DNA from: Lonepinella koalarum
GTDB lineage: Bacteria > Pseudomonadota > Gammaproteobacteria > Enterobacterales > Pasteurellaceae
Direction of reading: 5' to 3'
NCBI RefSeq assembly: GCF_004565475.1
Contig: NZ_SRHX01000001.1
Location: 1 to 64,000, forward strand
DNA length: 64,000 nt
Part shown: piece after piece, positions 48,299 to 50,256 of the stretch
Layout: every line of letters begins with the position of its first letter
Numbering within the stretch: position 1 is the first letter of the stretch
Notes under the pieces: generated by a model
Database searches by the model: none
Seen by the model: the letters and a program-made list of their open reading frames with translations, nothing else
Told to the model about the DNA's origin: nothing
Made by a program: the position numbers and the translations under genes

Positions 48299-48571
48299 TT
48301 AAACCAAATGCCCTAACTGGCGATAAACTTCCGCATCATTGCGTTTACCAATACGCAAAACAAGGATTTCTAATATATCGTTATTAATTTGATAAATAAT
48401 ACGATATTCTCCTGATTTAATCCGTCTAAGCGTTGGATAGCCTGTAAGTTGTTTAGATTGAAGTATCAGTGGGTTTTCTACTAATAGATCAATCTTAGCC
48501 ATATTAGCCAATAGCGTCAAATTTTTGTTCATTTTGGAATCAAGATCACGAAAATAGCCTGAAATTTACAT
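48299..48571 (-). pseudogene. RelE/ParE-superfamily toxin gene with a nonsense second codon
   Basis: The frame reads ATG TAA at 48571-48566, then continues open as ISGYFRDLDSKMNKNLTLLA to a stop at 48299. If codon 2 were AAA, the product would be 90 aa, the normal RelE length, with TLRRIKSGEYRIIYQI and ILVLRIGKRNDAEVY as the toxin core. As it stands, only an internal ATG (48532) gives a 77-aa product lacking the first strand and helix start. No antitoxin gene lies beside it; upstream on the other strand is the Rpn gene. An intact but alternatively started toxin cannot be excluded. Confidence 0.65.
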
Positions 48572-49084
48572 TTTACTGATGTTAAGATCTTATTGAAATT
48601 ACTGGCTACAAGCTAAGGAAAAACAATGAAAACGCCTTCTCGCTATATTGATTTAACCACCGATTATGGATTCAAAAGAGTTTTTGGCACAGATGTAAAT
48701 AAAGATTTACTTATAGACTTTCTTAATGAACTTTTTCAAGGTAAAAAAGTGATCAAAGATCTCACTTACAATAAGAATGAACAACAGGGCGACATTGCCG
48801 AACAAGGGTTGGTGATTTTTGACCTAACTTGTACAAGTGAGGACGACTCGCAATTTATTATTGAAGTACAACGTAGTAAGCAAAATCATTTTAAAGAACG
48901 CACCATTTATTACGGCAGTAAACTCATCAGCGATCAAGCCCCTAAAGGCGGTGTAAATGGTTGGAATTATGCTATTACTGAAGTTTATGTCATCGCCATT
49001 ATGGACGGTTTTTACTTTTCTGACAGTAAAGAATATCTACACGATATTTGCCTTTTCAATCAAAAGACAGGGCAAAAGTTTTAT

Positions 49085-49352
49085 CTGATCGTGCCGTAAA
49101 ACACTGCCCTTTAGGGCGGTGTTTTACGGCACAAATAAAAATAGAAAATTACTCAAAATTTGAGTACAATCAATTCGTGTTAACAGAGATATGCTTAGGC
49201 TTTCTCAATGACGACATATTCAGGGTAGGACATACCCGTAGAGCTTGTGAAGTGAATATCGTTAGATGTCAGCAACAAGAACCCACCGAGAGTAGCCCCC
49301 GAAAGGGGGAGCTAGTAGGAATCCCCGTCCTTTAGGGTGGGGAGGATGTCAA
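49085..49352 (+). mobile_element. 268-bp IS200/IS605-type deletion derivative with TnpB tail and putative omega RNA end
   Basis: The left end carries a 19-bp stem with a TTTA loop (49091-49109 with 49114-49132). The right end has CCCCGTCC/GGGTGGGG with a TTTA loop (49323-49342) and terminates GATGTCAA, as in IS605-group elements. There is no target duplication. Bases 49225-49335 still encode the last 36 residues of TnpB (VGHTRRACEVNIV ... GELVGIPVL, then stop). No tnpA or other tnpB remains. In this family, the 3' end of tnpB plus the right end encodes the guide RNA; a CCCCC-GAAA-GGGGG hairpin is at 49296-49309. It inserted after TTTAT within the Rpn gene. Confidence 0.85.
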
Positions 49353-49619
49353 GATAGACTAGCTCTTATCTATATTGAATTACTAAATTTCAATAAGCCG
49401 GAGACAGTACTGGAAAGTGATTTGGACAAATGGTTATTTGTATTGAAAAATATGGCAAGACTGGATAAATTGCCTACGTTTTTGAAAAAGCCTGTTTTCC
49501 AGAAACTATTTCAAATTGCCGAGTACAGCAACTTAAACAAAGGGGAAAAACAGATGTACGATGTCAGTTTAAAACGCAAATGGGATGAGTATGCCGTACG
49601 TGAATATTGGGAAACCGAA

Positions 49620-49706
49620 GGTATGCAAAAAGGTATAGAGAAAGGCATAGAGAAAGGTATGCAAAAAGGTATAGAGAAAGGCATAGAGAAAGGTATGCAA
49701 AAAGGA
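49620..49706 (+). repeat. 36-bp tandem repeat in the Rpn gene tail
   Basis: Two full 36-bp units (49620-49655, 49656-49691) and a partial third encode G-M-Q-K-G-I-E-K-G-I-E-K. In-frame coding repeats; such tails are common in Rpn proteins. Confidence 0.85.
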
Positions 49707-49831
49707 ATACAAGAAACGCAAAGAAAAAATGCGTTAAATATGCTTAGTCTTGGATTGAGTTTAGAGATTATTTCAAAATCAGTTGATTTACCCATTGATG
49801 AAATTAAAAAACTTTGTAGCCTATAAAACAA

Positions 49832-50095: not shown

Positions 50096-50256
50096 AGAAA
50101 ACCTCAAATTGAAGCCATGCCGCTATAAGATCGATTCTAAAAGAACATCAAACACCGCATGTGATTAATAATACACTATCGAAAATCCCAACAAATTTAA
50201 ATAGGGTTTTCTGATAGCACGCTAAAAAGAGCCGAAATTATACAATAATTTGAAAA

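Follow-up and report, generated by a model that had tools for sequence, protein, structure and literature searches.

A transposase-less IS200/IS605 miniature of Lonepinella koalarum with a predicted TnpB guide-RNA gene of its own

The analysed window, i.e., the whole stretch of 64,000 nucleotides at the start of Lonepinella koalarum contig NZ_SRHX01000001.1, contains a gene of the PD-(D/E)XK Rpn/transposase family that is split by a 268-bp insert, the boundaries of which (49085-49352) are exact to the base in the window sequence (Table 1). Rejoining the two halves without the 268 bp yields one PDDEXK_2 domain (235.5 bits, profile positions 2-225 of 229), and thus the insertion was clean and left no duplication. 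No intact copy of the host gene was found by DNA and protein searches of 140 genomes of the family; beyond the two halves in the window, these searches yielded a single 26-base match, in genome G054. Rpn proteins less than 60% identical are found on plasmids of other groups, e.g., Priestia, Leptospira and Bacteroides.

Table 1. Features of the insert and of the gene it splits (window positions).
Feature	Position	Strand	Basis
Host gene 5' part, Rpn/PDDEXK_2 family	48626..49084	+	154.1 bits
Target / presumed TAM TTTAT	49080..49084	+	same pentamer ahead of LE in other miniatures
Left end (LE) with 19-bp hairpin inside 49091-49132	49085..49138	+	similarity to L017 LE; hairpin
Promoter-like site TAGAAA-17 nt-TACAAT, -10 at 49165-49170	49142..49170	+	promoter scan, 9/12
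Leader domain GTTAACAGAG...TCTCAATGACGACA, predicted RNA 5' end	49179..49220	+	recognisable only in the miniatures read
Right end (RE) and predicted omega-RNA scaffold	49221..49352	+	similarity to L017 RE; covariance model R1; pair counts
Putative fossil frame, homologous to C-terminal tail of some TnpBs	49222..49335	+	frame comparison
Stem 1 GGGTA/TACCC, loop GGACA; pseudoknot 5' arm 49229-49232	49223..49237	+	both-side changes
Scaffold stem-loop CCCCC-GAAA-GGGGG (helix 6)	49296..49309	+	both-side changes in 2/6 pairs
RE hairpin, TTTA loop (helix 7)	49322..49343	+	sequence; pair counts; ISDra2 UUUA likeness
Pseudoknot 3' arm TGTC, then AA and guide	49347..49350	+	pairs with 49229-49232
Predicted 16-nt guide GATAGACTAGCTCTTA = host DNA	49353..49368	+	inferred from ISDra2
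Host gene 3' part	49353..49826	+	ORF from 49422 alone 43.5 bits

The left end starts at C49085, directly 3' of TTTAT, and its hairpin comprises 19 pairs and a 4-nt loop, with 20-nt arms complementary at 95%; the 3' terminus of the element, GATGTCAA, closes at 49352. As single-stranded DNA the element folds 7.5 standard deviations below shuffled sequences, and none of 200 shuffles equals this value. Neither a transposase nor a tnpB reading frame lies within the 268 bp, and since a Y1 transposase is not encoded there, the element is non-autonomous. An initial annotation of this DNA had described the insert, its 19-bp left hairpin and the lack of both genes, and coordinates, fold and reading frames bear it out. 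At the gathering score, Rfam assigns no family over the element. At 49243-49365 the sequence resembles HgcC (RF00062), but with 26.6 bits (E 4.6e-4, 701 bases searched) against a gathering score of 50 it stays below the threshold, and membership in that family was rejected.

The source genome (G000; 2.5 Mb in 47 contigs) was searched as a whole with the element, and all 268 bp are present three times, in the window, in a second copy at 100% and in a third at 96%, and hence are not due to chance. Another miniature (C46) is cut by a contig end, and further right ends lie at contig ends. Contig C20 harbours a full-length relative, L017, with the order LE-tnpA-tnpB-RE, to which the element is 92.6% identical in the left end (over 54 bp) and 93.2% in the right end. 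Its tnpA lies on the minus strand and codes for 138 aa with a Y1_Tnp domain (151.2 bits), and its tnpB on the plus strand codes for 380 aa with OrfB_IS605, Cas12f1-like TNB and HTH domains. By sequence, the L017 transposase matches ISHp608 and other solved IS200/IS605 transposases, and the L017 TnpB matches the solved ISDra2 TnpB (8bf8, 1.6e-48). We take DHVHL to be the HUH motif of this TnpA, and GIDMG, VEDL and NADVVGA to harbour the RuvC-like D, E and D positions of this TnpB. Judged by its ends, the subterminal hairpins of which match those of an autonomous element, the insert is an IS200/IS605 derivative, and being without transposase, with near-terminal palindromes and with ends related to IS605, it can be classed with the PATEs. 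The annotation had likewise proposed a transposase-less IS200/IS605 derivative and named further genomic copies and a full-length tnpB with the same right end as checks; the second and third copies and L017 agree with it.

The 268-bp query matched 27 of the 140 family genomes, mostly via the right end alone. A covariance model (R1), built from 12 miniatures, has matches in 30 of these genomes, in 40 of 394 genomes of the order (under strict filters and with few candidates per genome) and in two of the five genomes of the genus of G481, with 55 matches in G481 and 12 in G501. The scores of miniatures reach 213 bits and that of the best identified tnpB-bearing copy is 156 (G135, cut by a contig end), yet some miniatures fall below the latter value (151.4 in G012, 137.7 in G055 and, in G481, decayed copies); owing to this overlap, score alone does not separate the two kinds of copies. 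They were told apart by reading the sequences around the matches, and, the model matches in the 140 genomes having been read in part, the numbers of miniatures are minima. Miniatures occur in at least six of the 140 Pasteurellaceae genomes, with three complete and one cut in G000, six in G084, five in G052, four in G013 and one each in G012 and G055.

A degenerate leader pattern retrieved 21 stretches from the genome-contig collection, where a long exact right-end pattern had no match. Its carriers include Histophilus somni DSM 23850 (G084), Gallibacterium anatis DSM 16844 (G052) and Actinobacillus seminis ATCC 15768 (G013), as well as two metagenome-assembled genomes (MAGs) from another family, Succinivibrionaceae Tb.RUG.285 (G481) and uncultured Aeromonadales RUG14131 (G501), which to judge from their labels may originate from the rumen. 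Among the predicted viral contigs of IMG/VR, eight contain nine miniature stretches. The H. somni plasmid pHS129 and a 4.4-kb G. anatis plasmid carry copies 96.4% and 97.5% identical to a chromosomal H. somni miniature, from which it follows that the element moved between genera. At the level of sequence, the ends, the precise insertion, the covarying scaffold and the presence on chromosomes, plasmids and predicted viral contigs are documented for these elements; copies that were measured are 218-270 bp long. Counts across the family were scripted on all rows of a set of 76 miniatures, i.e., 77 model hits minus a second hit in L254 (21.9 bits). The set contains 40 of the 55 hits in G481 and nine of the 12 in G501, and L210, L211, L212 and L215 were left out, as they repeat the L063 and L165 sites; the left end was located in 67 rows and missed by the pattern in nine.

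The pentamer TTTAT precedes the left end in 48 of the 67 rows in which that end was located, and in another five it lies one base out of register. Patterns for the empty site of four viral-contig insertions found one, for the miniature shared by L209 and L213, and no match for the other three. On this IMG/VR contig (L239), flanks of about 1.5 kb each are 99.4 and 99.6% identical to those of L209 and join exactly at TTTAT. Related Pasteurellaceae plasmids lack the insertion at the pHS129 site: its joined flanks matched 17 records including pHS129 itself, nine other records among the matches listed span positions 23 to 101 unbroken across the junction at 63, and one related plasmid that was opened is identical over the pHS129 junction. 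By comparison with these two empty sites, insertion occurred precisely 3' of TTTAT without target duplication, and the miniature has been mobile in the past. The movement would have been brought about by TnpA in trans. Among the eight genomes, which are mostly draft assemblies and include two MAGs, an intact cognate tnpA is found only in G000 and G013; the gene is broken in G084, a piece in G055 and fragmented in G481, G012 has only distant relatives at 27%, and in G052 and G501 no cognate tnpA was found.

The right half of the miniature is predicted to form the scaffold of a TnpB guide RNA. In the alignment of the 12 miniatures 95.6% of cells pair, compared to 40.6-46.5% when the partners are slid by 1-3 columns, and 36 cells show changes on both sides versus 14.2 in shuffles, none of 500 of which reaches this number. 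When the pseudoknot is included, 95.4% of cells are paired and 11 pairs are changed on both sides. For two of the five covariation measures, shuffles attain the observed value, namely in 17 of 500 cases for changed pairs and in 106 of 500 for pair types (22 and 102 with the pseudoknot). Stem 1 and the pseudoknot (helices 2 and 3) are paired in 96.7% and 97.9% of cells, respectively; both-side changes affect three of the five pairs of the former and one of four, the last, of the latter. Fourteen full-length scaffolds, scored with the pseudoknot, are 97.1% paired and contain 50 both-side cells versus 16.3.

Most scored miniatures have A-U as the final pseudoknot pair, and those of the H. somni type have G-C. 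Its states were scored in 35 of the 76 rows: GACG coincides with GACGTCA in nine rows and with GATGTCA in one, GACA never occurs with GACGTCA, and two rows have other ends and a broken pairing. As the nine G-C rows represent one lineage, they reflect one or few events, albeit events found in miniatures only, since none of the 14 aligned full-length scaffolds has the G-C state. RNAalifold first proposed a helix UGACG/YGUCA, in place of which the ISDra2-type pseudoknot was adopted; both draw on the same bases at the 3' end and both agree with the counts, with 98.3% of cells paired in the RNAalifold helix. UGACG of the leader is accordingly predicted to be able to bind the 3' end and so to compete with the pseudoknot.

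The solved ISDra2 omega RNA comprises a stem 1, a UUUA tetraloop and a pseudoknot, in which positions -3 to -5 pair with -103 to -105 and which is joined by a non-canonical -2A:-106G pair; the segment upstream of stem 1 was disordered, and a variant shortened by this segment was tested as well (PMC10097598). The same layout is seen in the miniature, with the stem GGGUA/UACCC, the loop GGACA, the 3' end UGUCAA, a UUUA loop at 49331-49334, a possible G.A beside the pseudoknot and a guide that would derive from the 3' flank. In ISDra2 the last ~16 nt of the reRNA derive from flanking DNA and serve as the TnpB guide (PMC8612924). There the guide RNA stems from the tnpB 3' end and the right end, and the corresponding region would be used likewise in the miniature; the ISDra2 RNA, however, comes from the element that holds tnpB, whereas the putative RNA gene of the miniature stands alone. 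The initial annotation had taken the right end for the omega-RNA region and suggested a covariance model as a check; R1 matches widespread related miniatures, and fold and pseudoknot counts fit an omega RNA.

The frame at 49222-49335 translates as RVGHTRRACEVNIVRCQQQEPTESSPRKGELVGIPVL followed by a stop and resembles a TnpB tail that is open in relatives, e.g., L096 (RAGHVQLACEVNGISHQQQEPTESSPRQSRGS). The tnpB of L017, the cognate full-length gene, stops upstream of the right end and in another frame, and the matching stretch there has a stop; a coding tail of the cognate TnpB was therefore rejected. Because the L017 gene ends before the right end and the tail is open in relatives, the stretch is, as far as the frames tell, a former coding tail that is now RNA only. 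Of the annotated "last 36 codons of TnpB" the homology to the tails of some relatives thus holds, but not the placement at the end of the cognate protein.

Between left and right end the miniatures contain a -10-like hexamer, a gap of about 7 nt and a leader of the general form GCTAACAG...TCTCAATGACGGCA, also given as GCTAACAGAG...TCTCAATGACGGCA. TATAAT is matched at the expected place at four or more of six positions in 68 of the 76 rows, 48 of which have the box 7 nt ahead of the leader, and at five or more in 50 rows; these rows are related, not independent copies, and a few leader anchors are misplaced (e.g., L260 and L243). Twenty control offsets gave 4 to 52 and 0 to 39 rows at the two thresholds, the highest at offsets -60, -42, -18 and -12, all in upstream, AT-rich sequence. 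In the window, the site has a weak -35 (TAGAAA) and is one of eight on both strands of 601 bases, where shuffles expect 1.6; such sites are in excess across the AT-rich region, and thus the window scan alone says little. Neither leader nor -10-like box occurs in the 24 right ends downstream of tnpB that were aligned. The two features, which the initial annotation did not name, strengthen the idea of a candidate free-standing guide gene.

The miniature is probably a non-autonomous, PATE-like IS200/IS605 element, whose cargo would be a self-promoted omega-RNA gene; TnpA would mobilise it and TnpB would probably employ it, both acting in trans. TnpA from a full-length copy would recognise the hairpins and mobilise the miniature. 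RNA polymerase would start at about 49179, read the leader and the scaffold and proceed through the right end into the flank. TnpB made elsewhere would trim the leader, bind the RNA, use its ~16 nt of flank as a guide and cut the TTTAT-flanked empty site, and repair would restore or copy the miniature like a full element. We infer the transcription, the TnpB binding and the homing of the miniature from these features; processing of its own mRNA by TnpB has been reported in vitro (PMC10278001), and TnpB elements reportedly form a gene drive in plasmids (PMC11870625, preprint). An open cognate tnpB exists in all six miniature-bearing Pasteurellaceae genomes, although of the G055 copies the open one is truncated where its contig begins and another has a stop.

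The miniature might instead be an ordinary PATE or MITE, a passive TnpA substrate that keeps its scaffold merely along with the right end and makes an inert RNA, which we regard as rather unlikely. IS605-related PATEs are known (PMC3119063), and G481 and G501 hold many miniature copies and TnpB only as fragments with stops, a finding that weakens function in these two genomes; as both are MAGs, multicopy insertion sequences may be missing from them. Yet miniatures of different genera keep a leader, a -10-like box and a scaffold of ~130 nt, which is more than hairpin ends, and within the miniatures both partners of one pseudoknot pair have changed. The same source, in its accessible part, mentions a 52-bp terminal-only PATE, although its own movement is left open there (PMC3119063).

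A decoy or regulator RNA, which would occupy TnpB (or, via the leader, another partner) and damp the full-length element without homing, appears improbable. Compared to their own consensus, the 49 copies of G481 and G501 are 87.9% identical in the leader, 85.1% in the right-end hairpin and end, 80.0% in the left end and ~78% in the remaining scaffold; the leader is the best-kept long part, which is not predicted by pure guide function. Such a role would also agree with the predicted pairing of leader and 3' end and with a report that a portion of tnpB mRNA lowered cleavage by another TnpB in vitro (PMC10278001). Against this role, the scaffold, the pseudoknot and the position of the flank correspond to those in an active omega RNA of solved structure.

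Recurrent internal deletion of full-length copies, fresh and short-lived in each genome, is very hard to reconcile with a leader that is common to the miniature lineages and occurs in no aligned full-length copy. In favour of such deletions, the G000 miniatures most closely resemble the full copy of their own genome at the right end, with 91.1-97.0% identity versus no more than 83.5% for any other full copy in the comparison. The shared leader, however, indicates an older lineage, and the resemblance to the local copy is compatible with exchange. C46 consists of the first half of one G000 variant and the second half of another, and L209 and L213 share an insertion site but not the sequence of one scaffold stem; these mosaics argue that scaffolds recombine while the leader stays. 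In G000 the predicted scaffold matches the cognate TnpB in this sense, and elsewhere the picture is mixed: G052 C22 is 96.3% identical to a local full copy and the G055 miniature 81.9% to its own, G052 C66 is closest to a full copy of G055, from the same genus, and the miniatures of G084, G013 and G012 and the H. somni-type ones in G052 have no preference for a local full copy. Given such exchange, part of the covariation may stem from selection on full copies.

As a tentative extension of the preferred reading, the elements may be homing miniatures, which comprise two ends and a self-promoted guide gene and parasitise TnpA for movement and TnpB for homing. Their scaffold would be renewed by recombination with resident full-length copies, they would spread between genera on small plasmids and prophages, and the leader would be their own invention; we consider this fuller account possible, yet somewhat doubtful as a whole.

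ISDra2 and ISHp608 (IS608) share with the miniature the subterminal hairpins and the insertion 3' of a short motif without duplication, which is described in PMC8612924. Unlike these elements, the miniature lacks tnpA and tnpB, possesses its own promoter-like site and a new leader and targets TTTAT. The right end of IS608 is TCAA, like that of the miniature. The PATEs of Haloquadratum are transposase-free IS605 derivatives with near-terminal palindromes, as is the miniature, and the available part of the 2011 report mentions no guide-RNA gene (PMC3119063), whereas the miniature keeps leader, promoter-like site and scaffold. Guide loci without an adjacent nuclease gene reportedly exist in Ktedonobacter racemifer as stand-alone omega RNAs, which belong to IscB, in contrast to TnpB for the miniature. 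Thus PATEs and omega RNAs are each known, and their combination for TnpB could be new as far as the open-access literature indicates; among the best matches listed there, no title or abstract beginning describes a non-autonomous element with a TnpB guide RNA.

If the proposed working is true, guide and nuclease separate in natural transposons, the nuclease of one element homes a protein-less other, and a natural guide RNA of ~175 nt has its own promoter-like site. Two questions would then become testable. One is whether the benefit of TnpB is confined to the copy that encodes it or extends to every element whose RNA fits; the other is by what route omega RNAs can turn into free genes, on the way toward separate guide genes like those of CRISPR-Cas12.

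Several minor observations were made among the copies and in the window. Just upstream of the second, identical miniature lies a left-end-like remnant (TTTTTATCTGATTGTACCACC...; L018 ~912-950, G000:C11 ~539425-539463), and G000 codes for more TnpB homologues at 35-40% identity (C11:529706, C40:84449, C11:513513, C11:537017 and C46:70852). L242 (G481:C121:21228-21833) contains two miniature RNA hits ~230 bp apart in the same orientation, and upstream of position 167 in L216 the left end of the miniature, inspected by eye, is apparently swapped for an inverted full-length left end. Five right-end pieces at 92% in G020 (C11, C9, C3, C2 and C1), of which the fetched C11 and C9 end their contig, are probably a repeated element. 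The 3' part of the split Rpn gene includes 12-base repeats (49618-49700, coding for runs of MQKGIEKG), and beside the gene resides a ParE-like toxin ORF (48299-48532, minus strand, 34 bits). Finally, an L31 ribosomal-protein leader (Rfam RF03157, 47.2 bits) is located on the minus strand at 50101-50161.
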